Below are positions 8,203-25,787 of a stretch of 25,787 nt of DNA, piece after piece. Source of the DNA: Oscillospiraceae bacterium (GTDB lineage Bacteria; Bacillota_A; Clostridia; Oscillospirales; Oscillospiraceae). Both the position numbers and the translations under genes were made by a program. The DNA lies in the NCBI GenBank assembly GCA_021771675.1, contig JAETOP010000051.1, positions 1-25,787 of the forward strand. The letters run 5' to 3'. How positions within the stretch are numbered: the stretch's first letter is position 1; each line of letters opens with the position of its first letter. The notes below the pieces were generated by a model. It was not told where the DNA came from, did not search any database, and saw nothing but the letters and a program-made list of their open reading frames with translations.

Positions 8203-9432
8203 ATGATGAAAATGAAGAGGTTCCTTGCAATGCTGCTGGTTCTGGTTATGATGCTGGCAGTTTGCGGCGTGTCTGCCTATGCTGAGGGCGAGAAGGTCAC
8301 GGTCACCATGATCGCTGCACAGTACGGCCCCAAGACTGGTGATTGGTGGGCTGACTTTGAAGCCAAGTTTGAGGAAAGCCACTCCGACATCGATCTGGTT
8401 GTTGATGTTGTTTCCTGGAACGACATCTACACCGTCGTGAACACCCGCCTGTCCAATGGCAACGCTCCCGACCTGCTGAACATTGACACCTTCGCTGATT
8501 ACCAGGCTGATGACCTGCTGCTCCCGGCTCAGGATTTTGTCTCCCCTGAGACCTACGCCAAGATGTACCCCGCTTTCCTGGAGCAGTCCATTGTTGATGG
8601 TGTTGTTTGGGCTGTCCCCGATCTGGCATCCGCCCGGGCCATGTACTACAACAAGGACATCCTGGAAGCCGCCGGTGTGGAAGTTCCCACCACCTGGGAA
8701 GAGCTGACCGCCGCCTGCGAAGCCATCAAGGCCTACAACCCCGATATTTATCCCTGGGGCATTGACATGACCACCGACGAAGGTCAGGCTGCGTTTGCCT
8801 ACTATACCTGGGGCAACGGCGGCGGCTTTGTGGATGAAGAGGGCAACTGGGCTCTGAATTCCGAGGAAAATATCGCTGCTATTGAGTATGAGATCGGCCT
8901 GGTAAAGGCTGGCCTGACCAACTCCGACCCCGCTACCAACACCCGTTATGATCTTCAGGATCTGTTCTGCGCTGGCAAGCTGGCAATGATGATCGCTCCC
9001 AATGCGCTGTCCAGCCAGGCTGGTGAAGCCGGTATCAACTATGGCTTTGCCGCCATCCCCAACAATACTGGTGTTTCTGTTTCTGCCGGCGTTATGGATC
9101 GCATTATGTGCTTCGACAATGGCCAGTCCGAAGAGCAGATGGCTGCCATCACCGCTGTGGTGGATGCCTTCTATGACGATGTTCCCTATTCCGAGTGGGT
9201 CCTGATGGAGGGCTTCCTGCCCGCCACCTCCGCCGGTGGTGAGGCCTGTGCCGCCGCCGATCCCGCCATGGGCGCTTGGATTGACATCGTTGGTTCTGCC
9301 AAGTTCTATCCCACTGCCAAGGCTGAGTGGGCAGACGTCAAGCAGGGCGTTATCAATGTTGAGCAGCGTGCCCTCCTGGGTGAGAATGTTGCAGACCTGC
9401 TCAACGAGCTTCAGGAAGAGATCGCTGGCTAA
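8203..9432 (+). CDS. Sugar ABC transporter substrate-binding protein (CUT1 type)
   Basis: This 409-residue protein captures a sugar outside the cell for the two permeases encoded downstream. It starts with a signal peptide (KMKRF, then a hydrophobic core to about residue 25). The mature part has the extracellular binding protein fold: DWWADFEAKFEESHSDI, NAPDLLNIDT, and the hinge segment MYYNKDILEAAGVEVPTTWEEL, typical of the MalE/UgpB group. The one Cys in the signal region lies in LAVCGV, where Val at -1 breaks the lipobox rule. Cleavage after AYA looks more likely, which is unusual for a Gram-positive binding protein. AGGAGG precedes two consecutive ATGs. A strong hairpin after the gene probably raises its expression over the permeases. 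Confidence 0.9.
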   Translation: MMKMKRFLAMLLVLVMMLAVCGVSAYAEGEKVTVTMIAAQYGPKTGDWWADFEAKFEESHSDIDLVVDVVSWNDIYTVVNTRLSNGNAPDLLNIDTFADYQADDLLLPAQDFVSPETYAKMYPAFLEQSIVDGVVWAVPDLASARAMYYNKDILEAAGVEVPTTWEELTAACEAIKAYNPDIYPWGIDMTTDEGQAAFAYYTWGNGGGFVDEEGNWALNSEENIAAIEYEIGLVKAGLTNSDPATNTRYDLQDLFCAGKLAMMIAPNALSSQAGEAGINYGFAAIPNNTGVSVSAGVMDRIMCFDNGQSEEQMAAITAVVDAFYDDVPYSEWVLMEGFLPATSAGGEACAAADPAMGAWIDIVGSAKFYPTAKAEWADVKQGVINVEQRALLGENVADLLNELQEEIAG

Positions 9433-9480
9433 TTCCATAGGGTTGTTTCCCAACCGTTTTCCATAGTTTACTTCACAACG

Positions 9481-9509
9481 GCGGGCCGGACCCATGTGGC
9501 CCGGCCCGC
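9481..9509 (+). terminator. Intercistronic GC hairpin after the binding-protein gene
   Basis: GCGGGCCGG (9481-9489) pairs perfectly with CCGGCCCGC (9501-9509). No T run follows. Hairpins here commonly give partial termination or protect the 3' end, so that the binding protein is made in excess over the permeases. Confidence 0.6.
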
Positions 9510-9528
9510 TGTCTGTATAATATAATGA

Positions 9529-9599
9529 GAAATCAGGCACCAGACATCAGACTCTTTTTGCAGTTGGGTGCTGATGCCTGGTTCCTGGTTTCTGATTTC
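9529..9599. repeat. 71-bp foldback repeat between binding protein and permease genes
   Basis: GAAATCAG (9529-9536) is inverted at CTGATTTC (9592-9599), and inner CACCAGACATCAG (9539-9551) matches the complement of CTGATGCCTGG (9571-9581) with shifts. The sequence is built from short CAGACATCAG / CCTGGTTTCTGATTTC-like units. It looks like an inserted or expanded intergenic repeat rather than part of the transporter operon. Confidence 0.5.
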
Positions 9600-9617
9600 A
9601 TTTAAGGGGGTATTTGC

Positions 9618-10511
9618 GTGCGTTCCAAGAAACATTCCTCTTTGCAAAACCGAGCGGAGCCCTATCTGTGGATTCTTCCCAGTGTTCTGCTGATGTCAAT
9701 TTTTATTATTGTTCCCATCGGCTGCGTTTTTTACATGGCTTTCAGTAAAATTACCAAGGCCGGTATGGTAAAGGGCTTCAATGGAATTGAAAATTTTGCC
9801 AAAGTTTTGAAAAGCAGAGCCTTTGGTGTGGCGCTGTCCAATACGCTGATTTGGACAGTTGTGGTTGTGGTTTTGTCCACAGTGCTGGGCTTTATCCTGG
9901 CGCTGCTGCTCAACAACAAGTTTAAGGGCAGGAAGATTGCCAGAGCCATTATCGTTTTCCCCTGGGCGACAACTCTGGTCATCCAGGCCAGCGCTTGGAA
10001 ATTCATCATCGATACGGATTACGGAGCTCTGAATACGCTTCTGAAATCTCTGGGCATCATCTCCAGTAACGTCAACTGGACGCCGACTCCCGGTGCTTTC
10101 TTTGCCTGGGAAATTGCCTGCGGCATTTTTGTTACCATTCCCTTCGTCTGCTTCACAGCGCTGTCTGGATTGCAGAGTATCGATCAATCCTACTATGAGG
10201 CGGCGACGGTGGACGGCGGAAGCTACTGGCAGCAGATGTTCCACATCACGCTGCCGCTGGTCAAGCCCAGCCTGACGGTGGCCACGGTACTGAACATCAT
10301 CTATGTGTTCAATTCCTTCCCCATTGTCTGGACGATTACCAAGGGCGATCCGGCAAACCGCACCGACACCCTGGTCACATATCTGTATAAGCTGGCCTTC
10401 TATAACGGCAAGCAGGGGGAAGCGGCTGCCGTATCTGTCATTGGCTTTCTGATCCTGCTGGTCTGCGCCAGCCTATACATGATTTCCACTTTGAGGAAAG
10501 GGGATGAATGA
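9618..10511 (+). CDS. Sugar ABC transporter permease (MalF type)
   Basis: This 297-residue inner-membrane protein has about six transmembrane segments. The first is at residues 17-40 (WILPSVLLMSIFIIVPIGC). The EAA loop that docks the ATPase reads EAATVDGGSYWQQMFHITLP followed by LVKPSL, near residue 194. It starts with GTG, supported by AAGGGGG upstream; the next ATG lies inside the conserved first helix. It overlaps the next permease by four bases (ATGA), a sign of coupled translation. No ATPase gene lies in the operon, as in other CUT1 systems that share a MsmX-type ATPase. Confidence 0.9.
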   Translation: MRSKKHSSLQNRAEPYLWILPSVLLMSIFIIVPIGCVFYMAFSKITKAGMVKGFNGIENFAKVLKSRAFGVALSNTLIWTVVVVVLSTVLGFILALLLNNKFKGRKIARAIIVFPWATTLVIQASAWKFIIDTDYGALNTLLKSLGIISSNVNWTPTPGAFFAWEIACGIFVTIPFVCFTALSGLQSIDQSYYEAATVDGGSYWQQMFHITLPLVKPSLTVATVLNIIYVFNSFPIVWTITKGDPANRTDTLVTYLYKLAFYNGKQGEAAAVSVIGFLILLVCASLYMISTLRKGDE

Positions 10512-11362
10512 TTATGGAATCTCGCCAAATCAATCGAAAAAAGGCCCTGCTGCGGGTGCTATTGTACTTTGTGGTCTTCGACATCTGCCTGGCCACCCTG
10601 TATCCCTATTTCGTCATGCTGACCACCGCGTTGAAGAGCCGCCCCGAAATCTTCGCCATGGATGGCAAGGTCTTCCCTGTCAAGGCGGTGTGGAGCAACT
10701 TCGTTGACATCTGGCAGAAGGCCCCCATGGCCAAGTATATGTTCAACTCCATCATCATCGCCACCGGCTCCACCATCATTGCCATGGTCTGCGGCATCCC
10801 CGCGGCCTATGCCCTGGCCCGGATGAAGTTCAAGGGGCAGACGGCCTTCCTGGGCTTTATCATCGTATCCCAGATGTTCGCCCCTGTGGTTCTGCTCATC
10901 GGTATTTATAAGGTGATGCAGTTCCTGAAGCTGACCAACAGCCTTCTGGGCCTGATTTTCATCAATGCGGCCTTCAACCAGGCCTTCACCATCTGGCTCC
11001 TGCGGGGCACCTTCCTGAGCATTTCCCCCGAGATGGAGCAGGCTGCCACCATCGACGGCTGCAACCGGGTTCAGGCCCTGCTGCGGGTGCTGCTGCCTGT
11101 GGCCGCTCCCGGCATCGTCACCACCCTGATTTTCATTTTCATCAATGCCTGGAATGAATACACCGTGGCCCTGTGCCTGATTTCCTCCGATACCCTGAAA
11201 CCCTTGACCGTGGGCATCAACATCTTCAATGGCTACAACATGATCGAGTGGCAGTATCTGTTTGCTGCGTCGCTGTTTGCCATTATGCCCGTTGTCATCC
11301 TGTTTATGTCCATCGAGAAGAATTTGACCAGCGGCCTTACCGCCGGCGGTGTCAAGGGCTAG
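10508..11362 (+). CDS. Sugar ABC transporter permease (MalG type)
   Basis: This 284-residue partner permease has about six transmembrane segments. The first is near residues 14-35 (VLLYFVVFDICLATLYPYF), followed by the family's MLTTALKSRPEIF segment. The EAA loop reads EQAATIDGCNRVQALLRVLLP near residue 178, and WNEYTVAL is typical of MalG-type proteins. It overlaps the upstream permease gene by ATGA. The next gene, a NahK-like kinase, begins nine bases after its stop, so all four genes from 8203 to 12454 form one operon. Confidence 0.9.
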   Translation: MIMESRQINRKKALLRVLLYFVVFDICLATLYPYFVMLTTALKSRPEIFAMDGKVFPVKAVWSNFVDIWQKAPMAKYMFNSIIIATGSTIIAMVCGIPAAYALARMKFKGQTAFLGFIIVSQMFAPVVLLIGIYKVMQFLKLTNSLLGLIFINAAFNQAFTIWLLRGTFLSISPEMEQAATIDGCNRVQALLRVLLPVAAPGIVTTLIFIFINAWNEYTVALCLISSDTLKPLTVGINIFNGYNMIEWQYLFAASLFAIMPVVILFMSIEKNLTSGLTAGGVKG

Positions 11363-15926: not shown

Positions 15927-15964
15927 ATATCTGCAGTGATTTGCGCAGAGGAGGATTGTTGAGT

Positions 15965-16985
15965 ATGTTTGACTATTTTCTGGAGTACTATCTGGGTATG
16001 GCGCAGGGTATCAGCTATGTTCCGGCTCAGATCACTACGATTTTTGCGGTAATATTTCTCCTGAATGATACGCAGTGGACGGCTCGGGGGATTTTGCGTA
16101 AGCTGGGGGAGTGCACTGCTTGGTTTGCGGCGGTTTTGGCGGTGACCAGTGTCGTATATTGGAGATTCGGAGACTATCAGCTGGATAAGATCATGCTTGT
16201 GCTTTTTACCGTAGTGTATGCCTGTTTTTTTCAAAGTACCCGCCGAGGATCCGATTGGTTCGCAGTGTGGTGTACTTGGCGGGATATATGGTTGCGTTTT
16301 CCATCTCAGAGCCTCTTGGCGTGATCCTTCAAATGGTGGACGAGCGTTACTGGGTATGGGCACAGCATTTGACCTGGATTTGTGTGATCCTGCTGATTTG
16401 TGGAATTGTCTGGTTTCTGCGCCACTTTTCCAGTCCCCGGGGAAGTGTGGTGCATCCTCAGTTTGTCACACTGCTGTGTGTGGTTTCCGGAATGATTATT
16501 GCCTCTCAGGTTTTTACCTGAAGCTGTCCGGGGTGGAGAAGCTCAGTGATATTCCCACCAACTATAAGCTGTATAATCAGGTGGTCAGTCTGTTCCTGCT
16601 GATCATCGAAATGCTGACCTACTACCTGTATTACTCCGTGGCGACTGTCACACGGCAAAATGAACAGCTTCTGATGCTCCGGCACAAAAGTGAAATGGAA
16701 GAAGAGAAATATGAAGCGAACCGTGTCAACTATGAGGATTTGCGGATGCTTCGGCATGAATTGAAAAATCACAGCTTTTATATGCGATCCCTTCTGGAGG
16801 CGGGAAAATATGAGCAGCTGCGGGAGTACCTGAGCCATACGGCGGATGCGGAGGTAGACAAATTGCAGAGCTTTGACTGCGGAAATTATATGGTGGATGT
16901 TGTCATCAATCATGCGGTCAATGCGGCACGCCAGCAGGGTGTTTATGTGCAGACACAGATCGTTGTGCCCAGTCGGCTGCCCTAG
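15965..16985 (+). pseudogene. Broken AgrC-like sensor histidine kinase (two frameshifts, 3' truncated)
   Basis: Three consecutive reading frames together give one coherent protein. Membrane helices are encoded from 15965 to about 16228 (ending VVYACFF). They continue one base back as SKYPPRIRLVRSVVYLAGYM up to about 16515 (SGMIIASQVF), then shift back again into YLKLSGVEKLSDIPTNYK. Both joins lie in T runs (T7 at 16224-16230 and T5 at 16510-16516), each explained by loss of one T. The third part carries the kinase dimerisation helix with RHELKNH, the histidine box of AgrC/GHKL sensors. The frame stops at 16985, before the N, G1 and G2 boxes of the ATPase domain, which are absent. The following DNA belongs to a different gene. 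Not a duplicate of the intact kinase at 17415. Confidence 0.8.
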
Positions 16986-16987
16986 CG

Positions 16988-17272
16988 GTGCGGTGGTCAG
17001 TGCCTTCCATACCTATGACATTGATGGATGTGGTCAGCGAGGATGTGGATTTGATGGAGCAGGTGGCGGGGCAGGAGTCCATCGAGCAGCTTCGCTGGGT
17101 GGTGGATACCTGCCTGACCGACCAGGAGAGGCTGGTGATCCGCCTGCGGTACGGGCTGGACACGGAAACAGCCCTCCGCCAAAGAGAGGTGGCCGACCGC
17201 ACCGGCATCAGCTATGTATCCCGGATTGAAAAGCGGGTGCTGAAAAAGCTCCGGACGGCTCTGGAGGAATAG
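16988..17272 (+). pseudogene. 3' fragment of a sporulation-type sigma factor (SigK/SigE-like)
   Basis: The frame encodes TLMDVVSEDVDLMEQV, LTDQERLVIRLRYGL, QREVADRTGIS and YVSRIEKRVLKKL: the linker and region 4 of a sigma-70 factor, closest in pattern to SigK/SigE of endospore formers. Regions 1-3 are missing. Between GIS and YVSRIEK two residues (normally R-S, in the -35 recognition helix) are absent without a frame change. There is no ribosome binding site for a start at 16988, and the upstream sequence is the broken kinase. I read it as a dead remnant of a gene joined to the kinase by deletion or recombination. A skin-type split sigK half is a less likely alternative. Confidence 0.7.
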
Positions 17273-17335
17273 GGGCCAACTGTCGGCGTCCCCCCATGTA
17301 CGCTGGATGAAAAAACATCTTTCCTACGTAAATGA

Positions 17336-17372
17336 TGCCCGAACGCCCTTGGAAAGCAGGGCCGTTCGGGCA
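17336..17372. terminator. Hairpin downstream of the GHKL kinase gene
   Basis: TGCCCGAACGCCCT (17336-17349) pairs with AGGGCCGTTCGGGCA (17358-17372) with one bulged base. It separates the sigma remnant (plus) from the kinase gene (minus). T runs are weak on both strands. Confidence 0.6.
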
Positions 17373-17414
17373 TTTGTTCAGCTTGCCGCCGGGCAGACAG
17401 GGAATCGCCCGAGC

Positions 17415-18713
17415 TCAGCCCTTTTTGAGGGGGAAAAGCATGTTGACGGCAAAGGTGCCGGCGTTGGGCCGGAAGGAGATGGTCCCGCCGTATTTGGAGG
17501 TGATGGCGGCAATGCTCTTAGTGCCGAAGCCGTGGTACCGGGGGTCCCCGGGAGAGACGGGACGCCCGTTTTCCATGGTGATAGTGCCCTCATAGCAGTT
17601 GTGAATGTTGATGGAGAGCAGCTCGTCATGTCGGCGGATGGAAAGATCGATGGTGCGCAGGTCTTCCTCCAGCCCCTTCACAGCGTTGAAGGCGTTTTCC
17701 AGCAGATTGCCGAAGAGGGAATAGATGTCCGAGTCCTCCATGAAATCCAGGCTGCTGCCGTCGGCAATGCAGTTGATGGTGACGCCGCTTTCCTGGTAGG
17801 ATAGATTTTTCTCGGTGAGGATCACGTCCAGTGCCCGGGAGCCGGTTTGGAACATGGAGTCATAGATGCGGATAGCCTGCTCCATTTCTTTCAGGGCCCC
17901 GGCATCCACCTTGGCGCTGCTGCCGATGGTGCGGATCTGGTGGCGCATGTCGTGGCATTTCCGGTTGATCTGGTCGATGGTCTCGCTGGAGATCCGGTAC
18001 TGCTCCTGATCCTTTATCCACATCTGGGAGAGGATTGCCATTTCGTTTTCCAGATTGTGCTTGAGCATCAGGTTGAACTGCACCGCCAGGATGCACATTG
18101 TGGAGACGATCAGCAGAATGCTGTCGCAGAGCATATACAGCCAATCGCCGCTGGCCCGCCACTGAATCCGCATCCAGTAGCAGATCACGATCTCCACAAT
18201 GACCACCACGAAGATCAGCGCCAGAAGGCTGCTGTGATTCAGGTCGAAGTTCTGGCCCCGCTGCAGGTGGCGGCCATATATCCAGTAGTAGGCGGCATAG
18301 ATCCCGGCTGTGATGAGAAACAGCAAAGCCTCCGTGAACACAGAAGAGGGAAGGAGGGTATGCACGCATTCCCGAACCATGGAGCCCAAAAACTGGACGC
18401 AGTAGCCTGCCAGGGAGCAGAACAGGGCCTCGCTGATGCTTACCTGGAAGCAGCTGCGGGCCAGCACCCACATGAGCCCCAGAGCGGCGGTGTAAATAAT
18501 TATGTTTCGAATGTGGGACGGGTAGACATCGGAAACCATCATCAGCATAAACGCAACACCTGACAAGGTAATGGCAGCAAAGCGAAGGGGCATCAGCCGC
18601 TTCCGCTTTTGCTGGATCAGAAACATCAGTGTCCCCGTAATCAGGTAAAAATAGAATTCGCCGACAAAAAGGAGAGCGGATTTGGCGCTCATATAGGTAA
18701 ATTTGAAGGTCAT
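17415..18713 (-). CDS. GHKL-domain sensor histidine kinase (AgrC-like)
   Basis: This 432-residue protein has six or more transmembrane segments in residues 1-215, no large outside domain, then a cytoplasmic kinase part. The dimerisation helix carries CHDMRHQ with phospho-acceptor His254. The ATPase domain has NLLENA (N box, Asn336 and Asn340) and GFGTKS (G2 box, 395-400). All catalytic motifs are present. This layout is that of AgrC-type sensors, which often respond to peptides or small molecules; the signal is unknown. Its ATG overlaps the stop of the LytTR regulator gene by four bases, with GGGAGG inside that gene's end, so the two are a cognate pair. Confidence 0.9.
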   Translation of the reverse strand: MTFKFTYMSAKSALLFVGEFYFYLITGTLMFLIQQKRKRLMPLRFAAITLSGVAFMLMMVSDVYPSHIRNIIIYTAALGLMWVLARSCFQVSISEALFCSLAGYCVQFLGSMVRECVHTLLPSSVFTEALLFLITAGIYAAYYWIYGRHLQRGQNFDLNHSSLLALIFVVVIVEIVICYWMRIQWRASGDWLYMLCDSILLIVSTMCILAVQFNLMLKHNLENEMAILSQMWIKDQEQYRISSETIDQINRKCHDMRHQIRTIGSSAKVDAGALKEMEQAIRIYDSMFQTGSRALDVILTEKNLSYQESGVTINCIADGSSLDFMEDSDIYSLFGNLLENAFNAVKGLEEDLRTIDLSIRRHDELLSINIHNCYEGTITMENGRPVSPGDPRYHGFGTKSIAAITSKYGGTISFRPNAGTFAVNMLFPLKKG

Positions 18714-19420
18714 ACGCTGCCTCCCAAGTAGTCATTCAGGGTCTCCAGAACAGCATTCCGCTTGGGACGGCTGATTTGAAGCTCCTCTCCATCCACCACC
18801 AGGGTATAGCCCCGAACGGCCCGGACAAAGGCAAGATTCACCAGATAGCACCGATTGCAGCGGACGAACTGGGTCTTGTCCAGCTTCTCCTCCACATCCT
18901 TCAGCTTGCCGTAGGTATTCAGGTTCCCTTCGGTGGTGTGGTAGACCAGGCAGTGGTCCGCCACCTCCACATATTTGATGCGGGAGGAGGCAATGCGGTA
19001 GACCCCGTCGGAAACATTGATGAGGATGGTCTGGGCCTGTTCCTGGCGGCATTTGCTCAGGGCCTGCTGAATCCGGGAGGAGAACCTGGGGTAAGAGACG
19101 GGCTTGAGCAGATAATCCATGGCATCTACTTCATAACCCCGGATGGCGTAGCGGGCCAGGCTGGTAATGAAAATCAGGGTCACCAGCTTGTCCAGCCGCC
19201 GCAGCCGGGTGGCGGTGTCCATGCCGTTCATGGCGGGCAGATTGATGTCCATCAGCACCAGATCATATACCGGCTGGTATTCCAGCAGGAACTTTTCCCC
19301 CTCCGAAAACCACCTTACCTCAATATCGACGGAATTTTCCTGGCAGTAACGCCGAAAAAACTTCTGGATCAGCTCCGCTTCCGCGGGACTGTCTTCCACC
19401 AGAGCAACCAAATATGTCAT
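18710..19420 (-). CDS. LytTR-family response regulator (AgrA-like)
   Basis: This 236-residue protein has two domains. The receiver (residues 1-122) has acidic pocket Glu9/Asp10, phospho-acceptor Asp58 in LVLMDINLPAMNG, Ser87 and Lys106 in YLLKPV. The LytTR DNA-binding domain (about 132-232) includes IKYVEVADHCLVYHTTEG, FVRCNRCYLVNL and GEELQISRPKRNAVLETLNDYL. LytTR proteins bind two direct repeats about 21 bp apart. Such a pair lies at 19490-19531 in the promoter of the divergent GH3 glycosidase cluster, which is therefore the probable target. GGGAGGA precedes the ATG. The kinase gene follows with ATGA overlap. Confidence 0.93.
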   Translation of the reverse strand: MTYLVALVEDSPAEAELIQKFFRRYCQENSVDIEVRWFSEGEKFLLEYQPVYDLVLMDINLPAMNGMDTATRLRRLDKLVTLIFITSLARYAIRGYEVDAMDYLLKPVSYPRFSSRIQQALSKCRQEQAQTILINVSDGVYRIASSRIKYVEVADHCLVYHTTEGNLNTYGKLKDVEEKLDKTQFVRCNRCYLVNLAFVRAVRGYTLVVDGEELQISRPKRNAVLETLNDYLGGSV

Positions 19421-19489
19421 ATGTCAATCCTCCCATATTTCACATATCATTCCAAAATATAGTATAGCACATTCGTCAATGCTGTGGGC

Positions 19490-19531
19490 ACAATTCACGA
19501 AAGAAAGCGACAATTGGCGAAAAAAAGCTGA
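19490..19531 (+). promoter_or_regulatory. Two 21-bp direct repeats, probable LytTR operator of the GH3 cluster
   Basis: The two units (19490-19510 and 19511-19531) are identical at 17 of 21 positions. Both begin ACAATT and continue with nCGAAAA, then an A-rich part ending in AAAGC. The repeat length of 21 bp places both half-sites on one face of the helix. ACAATT-type half-sites with about two-turn spacing next to a -35 box are the known arrangement for LytTR activators such as ComE and AgrA. The second unit reaches the -35 box. The LytTR gene itself lies 70 bp away. Confidence 0.7.
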
Positions 19532-19557
19532 CAGACTGACAAAGCTGGGTTATGATG
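19529..19557 (+). promoter_or_regulatory. Promoter of the GH3 glycosidase cluster
   Basis: CTGACA (19529-19534) and TATGAT (19552-19557) are 17 bp apart. The -35 box abuts the direct repeats, as in activator-dependent promoters. The leader of about 45 bases ends in AAAGGAG before the ATG at 19612. Confidence 0.75.
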
Positions 19558-19611
19558 AATTTGCAAAAGCGGGGAGCCCCGCAAAAGCGAAATATGAAAG
19601 GAGCGCACACT

Positions 19612-22044
19612 ATGAAAAAGATGAACAAAGCTCTTGCCCTTCTGCTGGCTGCGTCCATGGTCCTCTCTGTCGGCGTACAGGGTGTCCATGCCGACGGCGC
19701 CAAGTGGTCCGAGCAGGAAACCGCCGATGGCTGGGTACTGGTCACCAACGAAGGCGGCAAGAACCTGGGCTACTCCAAGGATTCCGGAGTCACCCTAATT
19801 GAGGATGACGGCTTTGCCTTCAAGGATCTGAACCGAAACGGCGAGCTGGACGTTTACGAAGACTGGCGTCTGGACTACGAGACCCGTGCCCGGGATCTGG
19901 CCAATCAGATGTCCGGCGAAGAGATTGCTCCCTACCTGACCCACGGCGGTCTGGGCACCTTTACCACCAACCGCAATTCCTTCCGCAGTGATTCCAACTC
20001 CGGCTATGCCTACATCCTGGGCGGCGGCCGTGGCGGCGTTACCCGGAATACCGGCACCACCACCCAGGAAGCCGTTGACCACGCCAAGTGGGTCAATCTG
20101 GTCCAGGAGCTCTGCGAGGAGCTGGACTACGGCATCCCCGCCATTGTCTCAATTGACCCCAACAACCAGGCCGGTCTGGTTCAGGGCCTGTCCCTGTCCT
20201 CCACTATGGATCCGGAGATGGCAGTCAATGTGGGCAAGGCTTATTCAGAGCAGTACCGTGCAATGGGTGTCAACGCTCTGCTGGGGCCCCAGATCGACCT
20301 GATGGGTTCCCCCACCATGGAGCGTGGCTTTGAAACCTACGGCGAAGACCCGGCCCTTAGCCGTGACATTACTGAGGCCTTTGTATCCGGTATGCAGTCC
20401 ACCTGGGACGGCAATACCGACCTGGGCTGGGGCAGTGACTCCGTGATGACCATTATGAAGCACTACTCCGGCGCTGGTGCTTCCGAGGGCGGCCGTGATG
20501 ACCACACCGCATCCGGCAAGTACTCCATCTTCCCCAACAACAACTACGAGGCCCATTTGATTGCCTTCCATGACGGCGCTTTCAATCTGACCCACAGCTC
20601 CACCAAATCCGCTGGCGGTGTCATGATGAACTATTCCGCCAACTACTCCGAGGACGGCTCCCTGGGCGATATGGTCGGCGGCGCCTTCTGCCAGTGGAAG
20701 TATGACACCCTGTTCGGCTCCGGCTGGACCGGATTCATCATCTCCGACTGGGGTCCCCTGTCCGGCGGCGGCGGTTCCTGGGGTATGCAGGACTACACCG
20801 ATGCCGAGCGGATCATGATCGCCATCCAGCTGGGCATGACCCAGATGGGCGGCTATTCCAACCTGGAAAACATGCAGGAGGCCTATGAGCTGCTGGTAGA
20901 CGAGCTGGACGAGGATGAAGCTCTGAGCATCATGCGTGACCGTGCCTACGAGAACATTCTTGTCTCCATGCGGCTTGGTCAGTTCGAGAACCCCTACTGC
21001 TCCACCGAGCATACCCGTGAGGTCTGCGGCACCGAGGCGGCCTATGCCTACGGCCTGGAGACCGAGGTGAACTCCATTGTCATGCTGAAAAACAGCGGTG
21101 TCATTGGTGCTGCCAGCGAAAAGAAGACTGTGTACATCCCCTATACCTATACCCCTGCCTATAGCATGAGAGTTGGCCCCGCCATGCAGAATTTTGAAGC
21201 ATCCTGTGTGCCCTGCGTGGATGTGGACCTGGCTTCCAAGTACTTCAATGTGGTCACCGACTCCCTGGGCGAGCCCACCGGTGAGGACGGCGGCTATGTC
21301 GAGAACGACATCATCCGGGCCTCTTCTGAGGAAATTGCCGCTTGCGACATGATCCTGCTCTACATGATCGCTCCCCAGGTTGACTCCGTGGCTGTCTATG
21401 CGGACGATGCTAATACCGAGCTGCTGTACTACTCCGCTCCCTCCATCCAGTATGAGCCTTACACGGCGACTACCGCAAGAGAGGTTTCCATCTCCGGCGA
21501 CATCACTGTGGAGACCTTCAGCGACGGTTATACCATGCAGACCAAGGAAACCAAGGAAAATCGCTCCTATCGCAACCAGGCTGCCGGTGCGCTCCTTCCC
21601 AGTGTGCAGGCTACCTACGAAACCTTCAAGTACGTCACCGGCCTTAGCACCGAAACTCCCCTGGTGGTTCTGATGCAGCAGGGCATTGAGCGGCAGTGCG
21701 GCGGCAGCGGCTCCATGGTTTGGAGCGAGGTTGAGCCCTATGCCGATGCGATCCTGAACGGTTTCGTCTATGTGACTGATGAAGCATTCCTGAAAATCGC
21801 CGCCGGTGAAGCGGAGCCCAGAGGCCTGCTTCCTGTTCAGCAGCCCGCATCCATGGAGGCTGTCGAGGCCCAGTTCGAGGATCTTCCCCGTGACTGCGAG
21901 GTCTATGTGGATGCCAACGGCAATGCCTATGACTTTGCTTTCGGCATGAACTGGTCCGGCGTGATTGACGATGAGCGTGTTGCCACCTATTCCGCAGAAC
22001 CTCTGACCAAGTGCTCCTCCTTCGAGTTCCACTACGCTGACTAA
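19612..22044 (+). CDS. Secreted family 3 glycoside hydrolase
   Basis: The start at 19612 has AAAGGAG eight bases before it; an upstream in-frame ATG at 19552 lies on the -10 box. The 810-residue product begins with a signal peptide (MKKMNKALALLLAASMVLSV, probable cut after VHA). An EF-hand-like DLNRNGELDVYEDWR segment is followed by the GH3 barrel: ERGFETYGEDP, IMKHYSGAGASEGGRDDH, GVMMNYSAN and TGFIISDWG with probable nucleophile Asp379. The C-terminal alpha/beta domain begins around SIVMLKNSG (near residue 492) and continues to the end. This is the normal GH3 order. Family members release beta-linked glucose, xylose or GlcNAc; the sugar cannot be fixed here. The protein would act outside the cell. 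Confidence 0.88.
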   Translation: MKKMNKALALLLAASMVLSVGVQGVHADGAKWSEQETADGWVLVTNEGGKNLGYSKDSGVTLIEDDGFAFKDLNRNGELDVYEDWRLDYETRARDLANQMSGEEIAPYLTHGGLGTFTTNRNSFRSDSNSGYAYILGGGRGGVTRNTGTTTQEAVDHAKWVNLVQELCEELDYGIPAIVSIDPNNQAGLVQGLSLSSTMDPEMAVNVGKAYSEQYRAMGVNALLGPQIDLMGSPTMERGFETYGEDPALSRDITEAFVSGMQSTWDGNTDLGWGSDSVMTIMKHYSGAGASEGGRDDHTASGKYSIFPNNNYEAHLIAFHDGAFNLTHSSTKSAGGVMMNYSANYSEDGSLGDMVGGAFCQWKYDTLFGSGWTGFIISDWGPLSGGGGSWGMQDYTDAERIMIAIQLGMTQMGGYSNLENMQEAYELLVDELDEDEALSIMRDRAYENILVSMRLGQFENPYCSTEHTREVCGTEAAYAYGLETEVNSIVMLKNSGVIGAASEKKTVYIPYTYTPAYSMRVGPAMQNFEASCVPCVDVDLASKYFNVVTDSLGEPTGEDGGYVENDIIRASSEEIAACDMILLYMIAPQVDSVAVYADDANTELLYYSAPSIQYEPYTATTAREVSISGDITVETFSDGYTMQTKETKENRSYRNQAAGALLPSVQATYETFKYVTGLSTETPLVVLMQQGIERQCGGSGSMVWSEVEPYADAILNGFVYVTDEAFLKIAAGEAEPRGLLPVQQPASMEAVEAQFEDLPRDCEVYVDANGNAYDFAFGMNWSGVIDDERVATYSAEPLTKCSSFEFHYAD

Positions 22045-22062
22045 AAATTCCTCCACACCATT

Positions 22063-22093
22063 GCGGAGAGCGGAGCGCAGCTCTGCTCTCCGC
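22063..22093 (+). terminator. Strong intercistronic hairpin between two GH3 genes
   Basis: Fourteen bases from 22063 pair with fourteen ending at 22093 around a three-base loop, with one G-T pair inside (GCGGAGAGC against GCTCTCCGC at the ends). CTTTTC follows. The second GH3 gene begins 40 bases later without a clear promoter, so this is probably a partial terminator or 3'-end stabiliser within one operon. Confidence 0.75.
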
Positions 22094-22133
22094 CTTTTCA
22101 TGAAATCATTTTGTACCATAAAGGAGGAAAACA

Positions 22134-25100
22134 ATGATTCAATTCCTGTTACGGCTGATTACACCCATCGCAGAGTCTATGGGTGCGGAGGCCAGTATGG
22201 TGGAAAGCGTGCTCAAGCAGTGCGCCACCCAGGTCAATGTGATCTGTTGGGGCCTGGTGGCTCTGGTGGTATTCCTGGTTGCCTGCCACTGGCTGATGAA
22301 AAAAGGAAACCGTGCCCCCGTCCGGTGGACGGCGGTGATTGCCTGGGTTCTGGTGGTCTTAATGATGGGAAACCAGATCGTCTACGGCCCTATGTACACC
22401 CTGCTGGATACCTTCATGAGCTCTTCCAAGGCGGATATTGCCGAGGAGACTGTGGAAGGCAGCTACAATGTGATCGAGGAAGTGGGCAAGGAGGGCCTGG
22501 TCCTTCTGAAAAATGACGGCCTGCTTCCCCTGGATACGTCCGTCTCCAAGCTGAATGTGTTCGGCTGGACCTCCACCAATACGGTGTTCTCCGGCACCGG
22601 CTCCTCTGCGGCGGGAGAGCTGAACGCCAACCCGGTCTCCATTCTGGACAGCCTCCATGCTGCAGGCTTTGAAACCAATACCGAGCTGAGCGACATGTAT
22701 GCGGCTTACCGGGAGGACCGTCCTGCCATCACCATGAACAATCAGGACTGGACCCTGCCCGAGCCCACCATGGATCACTACACCGATGCCATCATGGGCA
22801 ATGCCAAGGCCTTCTCCGATACGGCGGTAATCGTTGTGGGCCGCAGCGGCGGTGAAAATGCCGACCTGCCTGCCGATATGAATGCTGTGATCCACGGAAC
22901 CTATGACATTTCCACCAACGATGCCTATGTCATGTCCGACGCCGTGAACCAGTACGGTTACTTCAAGGGGCACTACACCAATAACGGCGACTACGACGAT
23001 TTTGAGCCCGGTGAACACTACCTGGAGCTCTCCGTTACCGAGGAAAAGCTGGTTGACCTGGTTGCCTCCAATTTTGAAAATGTCATCCTGGTCGTCAACA
23101 CCAACAACACCATGGAGCTGGGCTGGATCAATGATTATCCCCAGATCAGGGGCGTGATTCTGGCCCCCGGCACCGGCGCCTCCGGCATGACCGCCCTGGG
23201 CCAGATCCTCAACGGCTCCGTGAATCCCTCCGGCAAGACCGTTGACACGTATCTCTATGACCTGAAAGCGGCTCCCACCTGGAACAATGCCGGTAATGCT
23301 GTGCCGGAAATTTACTCCAACTACACGGACCTTTCCAAGAAAACCCGCCGGGAGGATGTCTCCTACCTGGGCACCGCCTCCTATGTGTTCTATAACGAGG
23401 GAATTTACCAGGGCTATAAGTTCTACGAAACCGCTGCCGCCGAGAAACTGATCGATTATGACCAGGTTGTTCAGTTCCCCTTCGGCTACGGCCTGTCCTA
23501 CACCACCTTTGAGCAGACCATGTCTGAGGCCGAGCGAACGGACACCGCAGTCACCGTCAGCGTCACCGTGAAGAATACCGGGAGCGTGCCTGGTAAGGAT
23601 GTGGTGGAGCTGTATGTCACCGCTCCTTACACCAACGGCGGCATTGAAAAATCCGCCGTGAATCTGGTTGATTTTGGAAAGACCAGGATGCTGGCCCCTG
23701 GGGAAGAGGAAACTCTGAGCTTTACCCTTCCCCTGGAGGATATGGCTTCCTTCGATTCTTCCGAGGTGAAGGTGGCAGGGGGCGGATACATCCTGGAAGC
23801 CGGGGAATATACCCTCAGCGCCCGCTCTAGCTCCCACACTGTTTTGGACGAAAAGTCCTTCACCCTGGATTCTGACATCGTCTACAGCGAGGGCCGTCCC
23901 TCCGACCACACTGTCGCTACAAATCAGTTTGACTATGCCGCTCCCAAGCAGGAGGTCCTGTCCCGCAAGGATGGCTTCGCCAACTACGAAGCTGCCATTG
24001 CAGCCCCCTCCGCCGAGACCCTGACCTTGTCCAAGGATGAGACAAAGGCCATCCAGGCCATCTCCATTTCCCGGTACAAGCCCGAGGATCACGACGATCC
24101 CGATGCCGTCATGCCCACCACCGGCGCTTCCAATGGACTGAAGCTGGCGGATCTCACCGGCAAGTCCTACAACGATCCCATGTGGGATCAGCTGCTGGAC
24201 CAGATGACTGTGGAGGATATGGTCACCCTGGTGAGCAACGGCGGCTGGGCCACTGCCCAGATTGATTCCGTGGGCAAGGTCCGCACCTCCGAATGCGACG
24301 GCCCTGCGGGCCTGTCCAACTACCTGACTGGCTCTATGGGCACCCAGTTCCCCACGGAAGTGCTGATGGCCCAGACCTGGAGTCCTAGGATCGCCGAGCT
24401 GGTGGGCGAGGCCATGGGTGCCGAGTTTGCCGCCGCCGAAAACTTCGGCTGGTACGGCCCCGCTGTGAATATCCATCGCTTTGCCTTTGGCGGACGGAAC
24501 TATGAGTACTATTCCGAGGATCCCGTGCTCTCTGGTAAGTTCGCCTCCGCCCAGGTCAATGCCGCTTCCAGACAGGGCGTGTATGCCTATCTGAAGCACT
24601 TTGCCGTAAACGATCAGGAGACCAACCGCTGTGCCTTTCTGACCAGCTACCTGACAGAGCAGACTCTGCGGGAATCTGTTTTGAAGCCCTTCGAGATCGT
24701 GGTCAAGAACTTTGACTTTGATAACTGCGTCATGGGCATGATGAGCTCCTACACCTGGTTGGGCACCGTCCCCTGCGTCTCCAATCCCCAGCTGCTGACC
24801 ACGGTGCTGCGGGACGAGTGGGGCTTCACCGGCGCGGTGATCTCCGACTTTGACGGCGGCTATGGCTACATGCTCACCGACGCTGCCGTTCGGGCCGGAA
24901 ACGATCTGATGCTGGCAACCATCACTCCCGCCACCGGCACTGTGGATACCGGCTCTGCAACCATGGTGAATTCCCTGCGGCGGGCCTGCAAGAACATTCT
25001 GTACGTTGTGGGCAACTCCGGATACTACAAGGACTTCTCCAATTTGGAGGAAGCCGAAACCCCCGAGACCGCCCTGGTGGAGGCAGGAACCTCTGTCAGG

Positions 25101-25220
25101 AAGGTGGATCAGATCATGAGATCCGTAAACGTCGCTGTCGTTGTGGCCTGCGTTGTCCTTCTGGTGCTGGCCTGGGGCCTGTGGTTCCTCCGCAAAAAGA
25201 AAAGGACAGCCAAGGCATAA
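22134..25220 (+). CDS. Membrane-anchored GH3 glycosidase with swapped domain order
   Basis: This 1028-residue protein carries GH3 domains in reverse order. Residues about 34-52 and 66-86 are membrane helices. The GH3 C-type alpha/beta domain follows (GLVLLKNDGLLPL near 121, GRSGGENADLP near 240, to about 430), then QFPFGYGLSYTTFE and a fibronectin-III-like domain (about 445-580). The catalytic barrel comes last: ECDGPAGLS, EYYSEDPVLSG, YLKHFAVNDQE and TGAVISDFDG with probable nucleophile Asp905. Residues about 998-1019 form a third helix, ending KKKRTAKA. By the positive-inside rule both the KKGNRAPVR loop and the tail are cytoplasmic, placing the enzyme outside. AAGGAGG precedes the ATG. Swapped-order GH3 enzymes are known in rumen and gut Clostridia; anchoring at both ends is less usual. 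Confidence 0.88.
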   Translation: MIQFLLRLITPIAESMGAEASMVESVLKQCATQVNVICWGLVALVVFLVACHWLMKKGNRAPVRWTAVIAWVLVVLMMGNQIVYGPMYTLLDTFMSSSKADIAEETVEGSYNVIEEVGKEGLVLLKNDGLLPLDTSVSKLNVFGWTSTNTVFSGTGSSAAGELNANPVSILDSLHAAGFETNTELSDMYAAYREDRPAITMNNQDWTLPEPTMDHYTDAIMGNAKAFSDTAVIVVGRSGGENADLPADMNAVIHGTYDISTNDAYVMSDAVNQYGYFKGHYTNNGDYDDFEPGEHYLELSVTEEKLVDLVASNFENVILVVNTNNTMELGWINDYPQIRGVILAPGTGASGMTALGQILNGSVNPSGKTVDTYLYDLKAAPTWNNAGNAVPEIYSNYTDLSKKTRREDVSYLGTASYVFYNEGIYQGYKFYETAAAEKLIDYDQVVQFPFGYGLSYTTFEQTMSEAERTDTAVTVSVTVKNTGSVPGKDVVELYVTAPYTNGGIEKSAVNLVDFGKTRMLAPGEEETLSFTLPLEDMASFDSSEVKVAGGGYILEAGEYTLSARSSSHTVLDEKSFTLDSDIVYSEGRPSDHTVATNQFDYAAPKQEVLSRKDGFANYEAAIAAPSAETLTLSKDETKAIQAISISRYKPEDHDDPDAVMPTTGASNGLKLADLTGKSYNDPMWDQLLDQMTVEDMVTLVSNGGWATAQIDSVGKVRTSECDGPAGLSNYLTGSMGTQFPTEVLMAQTWSPRIAELVGEAMGAEFAAAENFGWYGPAVNIHRFAFGGRNYEYYSEDPVLSGKFASAQVNAASRQGVYAYLKHFAVNDQETNRCAFLTSYLTEQTLRESVLKPFEIVVKNFDFDNCVMGMMSSYTWLGTVPCVSNPQLLTTVLRDEWGFTGAVISDFDGGYGYMLTDAAVRAGNDLMLATITPATGTVDTGSATMVNSLRRACKNILYVVGNSGYYKDFSNLEEAETPETALVEAGTSVRKVDQIMRSVNVAVVVACVVLLVLAWGLWFLRKKKRTAKA

Positions 25221-25259
25221 TTTCTTCCGCTTCACTTCCCTCTCCTTACCATACTTCTG

Positions 25260-25279
25260 CCCCCGCCTTCGGGCGGGGG
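25260..25279. terminator. UUCG-type hairpin after the anchored GH3 gene
   Basis: CCCCCGCC (25260-25267) pairs perfectly with GGCGGGGG (25272-25279) around a TTCG tetraloop. No T run follows, so it is more likely a stabilising or attenuating hairpin than a full terminator. Confidence 0.55.
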
Positions 25280-25299
25280 AGAAGATGGATTGTATTTCC

Positions 25300-25344
25300 T
25301 TGTGCAAATGGGAAGGCCGGGGTCCGACCCTGCCATTTGTACAA
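25300..25344. repeat. 45-bp inverted repeat before the third GH3 gene
   Basis: TTGTGCAAATGG (25300-25311) and CCATTTGTACAA (25333-25344) match as inverted arms at 11 of 12 positions, with a GC-rich centre that can also pair (GGGTC/GACCC). It ends 21 bases before the next ATG. It may be an operator, an RNA attenuator or a small palindromic repeat. Confidence 0.45.
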
Positions 25345-25365
25345 TGAACGTGTGAGGTGCATGAT

Positions 25366-25787
25366 ATGAATGGCAAACAGCATATTGACCTTCTGACCCT
25401 GGAGGAGAAAGCTGCCCTGCTGCAAGGGTGGGGGGAGTGGAACACGCTTGCGTTGCAGGAGGCGGGCATCCCGTCCATCTTCCTGTCCGACGGGCCTCAC
25501 GGCCTGCGCAAGCAGGCGGGGGCGGGGGATCACCTGGGCCTGAACGCCTCCATACCTGCCACCTGCTTCCCCAGTGCCGCCACCATGGCCAACTCCTGGG
25601 ATGAGGCCCTGGGAGAGGAGCTGGGAAAGGCGCTGGGCCAGGAAGCGGCGGCGGAGAATGTCAACATCCTTCTGGGCCCGGGCCTGAACATGAAGCGCTC
25701 CCCCCTGTGCGGGCGGAACTTCGAGTACTTCTCCGAGGATCCCTACCTGGCCGGCAAAATGGCCGCCGCCTACATCCGGGGCATCCA
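25366..25787 (+). CDS. Family 3 glycoside hydrolase, N-terminal part (runs off window)
   Basis: The frame is open from an ATG at 25366, preceded by GAGGTG, to the right edge, covering about 140 residues. It starts directly with the GH3 barrel: [64 protein letters not shown] in pieces that are hallmarks of GH3 beta-glucosidases with normal domain order. There is no signal peptide or membrane helix, so it is predicted cytoplasmic, unlike the two preceding GH3 proteins. The catalytic Asp lies beyond the window. It probably belongs to the same cluster and could finish breakdown of imported oligosaccharides. Confidence 0.88.

Follow-up and report, generated by a model that had tools for sequence, protein, structure and literature searches.

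Gene content of the locus

The window, meaning the whole stretch of 25,787 nt analysed here, carries a gene for a LytTR-type response regulator and a GH3 family gene (GH3A) in divergent orientation, with a pair of direct repeats and a candidate promoter located between the two. The regulator (236 aa; 18710–19420, minus strand) consists of a receiver followed by a LytTR domain, both matched over the cut-off (Response_reg, PF00072, 1.4e-17; LytTR, PF04397, 3.7e-17). Residue D58, presumably the phospho-acceptor aspartate of the receiver, is invariant in an alignment of 32 sequences (the window protein and 31 relatives). In a search of solved structures the DNA-binding half of the regulator matched 3d6w (‘methyl-accepting/DNA response regulator’) at 6.9e-5 and AgrA weakly, with E about 0.03. 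The gene overlaps by 4 bp with that of a GHKL sensor kinase (432 aa; 17415–18713, minus strand), in which several segments of a hydrophobic N-terminal half precede a full-length match to the GHKL ATPase domain. The regulator gene starts 70 bp from the first repeat; thus the divergent LytTR regulator with an intact kinase, as described in the original prediction of this locus, is confirmed by the domain matches. Beyond the kinase gene, the region 15941–17272 appears by eye to hold the remains of another GHKL-type kinase, split over two frames (15941–16324 and 16218–16985). The second of these pieces has no Pfam match, and a SigK/SigE-like sigma region 4 piece follows directly after it (16988–17272).

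GH3A (810 aa; 19612–22044, plus strand) has a signal-peptide-like start and matches only the N-terminal GH3 domain (PF00933). The ATG at 19552, given as its start in the list of ORFs, was rejected, as it lies inside the −10 hexamer; the ATG at 19612, which follows the ribosome-binding site AAAGGAG (19597–19603, plus strand), should be the start. Within the leader of GH3A (19563–19589), GCAAAAGCG is found on both sides of GGGGAGCCCC, a possible small hairpin. In GH3B (1028 aa; 22134–25220, plus strand) the domain order is permuted to GH3_C, Fn3, GH3_N, and hydrophobic segments are found at each terminus. GH3C (25357–25785, plus strand) is present as an N-terminal part cut by the end of the window. 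The three-enzyme GH3 cluster originally proposed is therefore there as far as the window extends, but its third member lies outside the conserved core: no GH3C counterpart follows GH3B in the related loci L098, L099 and L100, where GH3C matches fall within GH3B. A terminator-like hairpin of 14 pairs (22063–22093, plus strand) stands between GH3A and GH3B. Among the three loci scanned for it, the hairpin is present in the window and in L098 and absent from L099, so that the place of GH3B in the transcript is unsure. By eye, GH3A of L098, L099 and L100 begins with a lipobox-like ...LAAC sequence; in the window protein the signal peptide is a plain one that lacks this cysteine. No relatives of GH3A were found in viral contigs. 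A Gram-positive polysaccharide utilization locus would unite glycosidases, a transporter and a regulator within a single cluster; here the regulator, kinase and GH3 genes are adjacent, and genes for a solute-binding protein and two permease-like proteins (the latter by eye) are located at 8203–11362, parted from the regulator, kinase and GH3 genes by Obg and, by eye, ribosomal protein genes.

Direct repeats and promoter between the divergent genes

The intergenic region contains two direct repeats of the form ACAATTnnCGAAAnAAAGC on the plus strand: ACAATTCACGAAAGAAAGC at 19490–19508, with the core half-site ACAATTCAC(G), and ACAATTGGCGAAAAAAAGC at 19510–19528, with the core half-site ACAATTGGC(G). 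Both are kept in relatives. They are followed by a candidate −35 CTGACA of the GH3A promoter (19528–19533, plus strand), which is not conserved in relatives, and by a −10 TATGAT (19551–19556, plus strand), located at a conserved distance of 41 bases past the first base of the second ACAATT. Tandem ACAATT repeats beside a CTGACA/TATGAT promoter are thus present as predicted, although the repeat unit had been given as 21 bp and the start-to-start spacing is 20 bp. Written out, the arrangement is ACAATTCAC-11-ACAATTGGC-32-TATGAT, that is, half-sites in a 9-11-9 pattern and 32 bp to the −10.

The common repeat pattern occurs twice in the window at up to 3 mismatches, with 0.21 occurrences expected and two or more copies in 0/100 shuffles; the pattern was derived from the repeats themselves, and the shuffle test therefore measures repetition, not function. 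CTGACA-17-TATGAT agrees with the sigma-70 consensus at 10/12 positions and is one of the two best of 9 matches in 15.5–25.8 kb, but 5.4 such matches are expected by chance, which makes the promoter alone weak evidence.

As described in the relevant passage, the streptococcal ComE box reads aCAnTTcaG-12-aCAgTTgaG, a 9-12-9 arrangement that lies mostly 31 or 32 bp before a −10 TATAAT, with one gene at 42 (PMC6001120). Elsewhere the spacing of ComE boxes is given as 11–13, with a mode of 11 (PMC6560143, in the part concerned with the boxes). In the window there are likewise two ACAnTT half-sites of about 9 bp with a period in the range of about 20–22, and the 32 bp from the second half-site to the −10 agree with the about 31/32 bp of the ComE type. 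Judged by these features, the repeat pair has the architecture of a LytTR operator and is a predicted binding site. It differs from the ComE box in that the spacer is 11 in the window and in the related loci L001, L002 and L028, and 12 in the other divergent loci; in addition, CG follows the half-site.

Conservation of the site where GH3A is divergent from the regulator

A search of 5.8 billion proteins returned 2774 candidate relatives of the regulator, 2393 of them at E <= 1e-20, of which 120 were listed. A profile built from the window regulator and 31 relatives was scanned against one genome each of 84,980 species; at least 524 places encode a relative, and the best 80 loci were kept. GH3A is divergent from the regulator in 7 of these 80 loci (L001, L002, L005, L006, L007, L008 and L028). 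The regulators of the divergent loci are 48–62 % identical to that of the window, and relatives of 70–94 % identity are known from the protein search only. No regulator above 62 % identity was found in nearer genomes (matches in 5/400 of the family at 1e-75, in 1/394 of the order, this one being G001, and in 6/42 of the genus).

When the intergenic regions of the window and the seven loci are aligned, the flanks differ, and the direct repeat, the −10 and the ribosome-binding site are nearly all that is common. In all eight, the −10 lies 41 bases past the first base of the second half-site; the repeat period is 20 in the window, L001, L002 and L028 and 21 in L005, L006, L007 and L008. L092 and L102, two loci identified subsequently in further genomes, also keep both the site and the 41-base spacing, bringing the count to 10/10 distinct divergent loci; L103 was left out of these because its intergenic sequence is that of L006. 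The contig of L003 stops short of any divergent gene, and the site is present there at a distance of 42. L004 (regulator 54 % identical, no GH3 match in the locus) is without such a site over the 420 bp that precede its regulator. Conservation of the repeats among relatives with the same gene order, a consequence of the original prediction, is thus borne out. By eye, other repeats of the GACAGGGGACGG type, on both strands, occupy the region upstream of the L004 regulator instead of a LytTR site.

The −35 hexamer behaves differently from the rest of the promoter. It agrees with TTGACA at 5/6 positions in the window, at 0–2/6 at spacings of 16–18 in L001, L002, L028 and L008, and at best at 4/6, at spacing 17, in L005–L007. 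A constitutive promoter explained by CTGACA alone was considered and rejected, the −35 being poorly kept in the divergent relatives. A fixed operator and −10 combined with a dispensable −35 suggest activation. Since the −35 of the window itself is good, part of the transcription may be independent of the regulator.

Equivalent sites downstream of the kinase gene

Direct control of a three-enzyme GH3 cluster had been taken, in the original prediction, for an unusual output of a LytTR circuit. In Clostridia such an output is not unusual: a GH3 match is found somewhere in the fetched stretch of 63 of the 80 kept loci, and proximity of LytTR and GH3 genes had already been remarked upon in a passage of an earlier study (PMC2914790). 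GH3 is directly beside the regulator–kinase pair in 43/80 (7 divergent within 600 bp and 38 within 1.5 kb after the kinase gene, with L006 and L007 having both), elsewhere in the stretch in 20/80 and absent from it in 17/80.

The 260 bp following the kinase gene were scanned for repeats without any motif. Period 21 with at least 9/11 matches occurred in 24/72 loci, against 1–12 of 72 for the 19 other periods (14 to 33). A half-site model built from the 8 divergent loci only exceeded the 95 % level of shuffles in 40/67 other loci and the 99 % level in 23; after a length filter, 40/66 kinase-downstream regions were above the 95 % level and 26/66 below. Simple base shuffles served for the period scan and two-base-block shuffles for the half-site model. 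Control regions scored far more rarely: 1/63 and 1/63 before the regulator on either strand, 4/66 inside the kinase gene and 4/60 at 2 kb on. The opposite strand of the kinase-downstream regions gave 12/66, which is above the other controls and unexplained. With one locus per cluster at 75 % regulator identity, 27/50 pass the model. The period is 21 in 31/40 of the kinase-downstream matches, versus 20 in the window clade.

A −10-like hexamer, which was not used in choosing the regions, is located at +41 or +42 in 27/40 of those that pass, compared with at most 7/40 at any other offset from 25 to 64. The peak among these other offsets, at +63, is made up of L013–L015, L025, L029, L055 and L056; in the last four the register is one unit off due to a third repeat. 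These same four loci seemingly have three half-sites 21 bp apart, rather than two, before a GH78 rhamnosidase gene. In 8/40 the site match is located at or beyond the earliest start that the next ORF could have. Most of these ORFs likely have a later true start, and the match of L060 is probably inside the gene.

The gene after the site encodes a glycosidase in 37/40 passing loci: GH3 in 27, counted as a GH3 match within 1.5 kb after the kinase, GH78 in 7, GH2 in 2 and GH10 in 1. By Pfam, the next ORF of the 13 passing loci without such a GH3 match is a GH78 rhamnosidase (L025, L029, L055, L056, L059, L062 and L065), GH2 (L039 and L060), GH10 (L076) or a protein with an Ig-like Big_3 domain (L010), with no Pfam match in L040 and L079. 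Other next ORFs were assigned to GH2 (L043, L066 and L080), Big_3 (L011, L018, L033 with CBM6, L038 and L051), GH3_C (L021) and the purine-permease family (L042), with no Pfam match in L001, L009 and L023. Since the regulator gene is usually without a site before it, the target is probably the gene that follows the kinase gene.

These distributions bear on two alternative explanations of the repeats. That a tandem A-rich repeat without function has arisen by chance might be suggested by there being only two copies, both short. Yet the repeat is kept at a fixed spacing in 10/10 divergent loci despite their differing flanks, and the period scan and the control regions of the half-site model also speak against chance; we regard this explanation as scarcely credible and reject it. 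Alternatively, the regulator may read the site mainly for its own gene, with GH3A controlled otherwise. The regulator gene has a candidate −10 TATACT (19461–19466, minus strand) whose −35 position, lacking a consensus, abuts the first repeat, so that autoregulation of either sign through the same site is possible. However, the fixed distance runs to the −10 on the GH3 side, and where there is no divergent GH3A the site is found after the kinase gene and before a hydrolase gene and hardly ever before the regulator (the 1/63 on either strand noted above). Autoregulation as the main role of the site is therefore quite improbable.

Occurrence of the site across genomes and its likely reader

At up to 3 mismatches, the window-type pattern matches once each in the genomes G001, G002 and G003 (2.6, 2.8 and 3.8 Mb), in every case between the divergent genes of this locus, and has 0 matches in five other genomes and 0 in a backwards control. 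The pattern was written from these very sites, and the news is hence the absence of other matches; among the five, G004, G005 and G050 carry their own diverged version of the site, beyond the reach of the window-type pattern. A pattern of period 21, with the gap one base longer, gave a single match in 8 genomes that was not chosen by its neighbours. This match closely follows the gene of a further GHKL kinase (191 bits in tblastn), and a TATACT comes 41 bases later. GH3_C matches the next ORF weakly, at 6e-6 and 26.8 bits, where the cut-off is 31.

The genomes G001–G005 contain 16, 14, 23, 12 and 49 LytTR domains, respectively, and with 12–49 candidates per genome a paralog encoded elsewhere could be the reader of the site, its adjacency to this regulator being inherited rather than functional. 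Against such a paralog stands the occurrence of one window-type site per genome, beside this regulator, in G001–G003. A weaker argument is that the site varies with the adjacent LytTR domain more than with the REC domain. Across 39 loci, differences between sites correlate with differences between LytTR domains, given those between REC domains, with a partial r of 0.29 (p 0.0005, 2000 permutations); the reverse partial correlation (REC given LytTR domain) is 0.16, and the effect is modest. The set comprised the 8 divergent loci and 31 of the 40 passing kinase-downstream regions (L014, L015, L034, L040, L056, L060, L065, L069 and L076 were left out), with sites registered by hand and those of L025, L029 and L055 shifted by one repeat unit by hand. 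Co-variation together with a single site per genome favours the adjacent regulator as the reader, and we give a distant paralog only a slim chance.

Proposed circuit

The repeats are very probably the operator of the adjacent LytTR regulator, which would exert a kinase-driven, ComE-like activation of GH3A and probably GH3B. The membrane kinase (17415–18713) would sense an extracellular cue, most likely a glycan-linked one, and phosphorylate the regulator. A regulator dimer, predicted to occupy both ACAATT half-sites from the same side of the helix, may then recruit sigma-A RNA polymerase, in the manner of ComE, to the −10 at 19551. The outcome would be that GH3A is switched on, and GH3B probably too. 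The regulator–GH3 circuit of the original prediction is in this respect supported by the comparison of sequences, with the site observed in 10/10 divergent loci and only here in G001–G003; from these patterns we infer binding and activation.

The signal could also be of another kind. A quorum-type system, in which the kinase senses a secreted peptide and the glycosidases are controlled by cell density, would fit a GHKL kinase whose N-terminal half is hydrophobic and which is paired with a LytTR regulator; such a system is compatible with reading the repeats as the operator. We take the window kinase to be of a class resembling AgrC of AgrC/AgrA and ComD of ComD/ComE, which sense a secreted peptide. 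However, no signal-peptide gene was apparent among ATG ORFs of at least 20 aa, which are absent from the three gaps 17230–17430, 19421–19611 and 22045–22133, and the partner genes in relatives are mostly glycosidases. A fourth gap, 25221–25356, contains two unremarkable ATG ORFs of 20 and 34 aa. A peptide signal is thus unlikely, though less so than either of the other readers or roles considered above, and a glycan-linked cue is preferred.

Relation to known LytTR systems

The locus resembles the ComDE system of Streptococcus pneumoniae and S. mitis, as far as the passage on the ComE box describes it (PMC6001120), in the direct repeat, its distance to the −10 and the combination of a LytTR regulator with a kinase. 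Its neighbours are glycosidases rather than competence genes, and the gaps searched showed no gene for a peptide. In HdrRM/BrsRM, of the class of LytTR Regulatory Systems (LRS), the direct repeats, mostly 9-12-9, are located a short way before the −35. A membrane protein acting as inhibitor is paired there with the regulator, which according to the passage acts on its own operon and on bacteriocins (PMC6193735). The window system is set apart from this class by its kinase partner with a GHKL ATPase domain, and its regulator has a receiver.

Closer in gene content is Butyrivibrio proteoclasticus. Three of its LytTR regulators each lie near a secreted GH3 that carries a membrane helix at its C-terminus, and the three were suggested to share a function (Kelly et al. 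2010, PMC2914790). That account concerns one genome, and the passage in question gives neither a binding site nor a promoter (PMC2914790). In Cellulosilyticum ruminicola the LytTR gene Crum_2623 is likewise beside glycosidase genes, in this case for an endoglucanase and a cellobiohydrolase, and was 11.5-fold up on xylan versus cellobiose; the passage mentions no site (PMC5733062). One LytTR regulator is also listed for a Roseburia arabinoxylan locus in the section describing it (PMC5320581). Among open-licence papers, judged by title or abstract, none describing this operator or testing such a circuit was found.

The unit of regulator, site and enzyme recurs in many gut and rumen Clostridia, and on sequence grounds this looks like a widespread LytTR–GHKL family for glycan loci. 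To our knowledge, the regulators of fibre-degrading loci in these gut Clostridia are poorly known. We lean towards a broader picture in which gut and rumen Clostridia and some Bacilli have a large, expanded LytTR–GHKL family, up to dozens per genome. Each pair would read its own variant of a ComE-style repeat, placed at a fixed distance from the −10 of the membrane-bound or secreted glycosidase that belongs to it (GH3, GH78, GH2 or GH10), and the family would be to Gram-positives what the local regulators of polysaccharide loci are to Bacteroides. The breakdown of nutrients would thereby join quorum sensing, competence and bacteriocins among the outputs of LytTR–GHKL systems. The operator signature (a direct repeat of period 20–21 with 41/42 bases to the −10) beside such a pair would then predict the glycosidase target of uncharacterised LytTR systems, and the paralogous regulator–site pairs would be material for working out a LytTR recognition code.

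Linkage between the two families is also visible without reference to the site. Across 12 genomes, 35/150 listed LytTR domains are located within 5 kb of a listed GH3 domain, versus 2/150 OmpR-type domains (Fisher p 1.4e-9), although up to 12 of the 35 neighbours may reflect selection, as the presence of a relative of the regulator was the criterion by which the 12 genomes had been chosen. The 150 listed per family come from totals of 234 GH3, 167 LytTR and 250 OmpR-type domains, and many of the entries are from one genome, G005 (13/47). In this genome, that of L008, both families are strikingly expanded, with 49 matches to LytTR and 88 to GH3 domains in 3.7 Mb.
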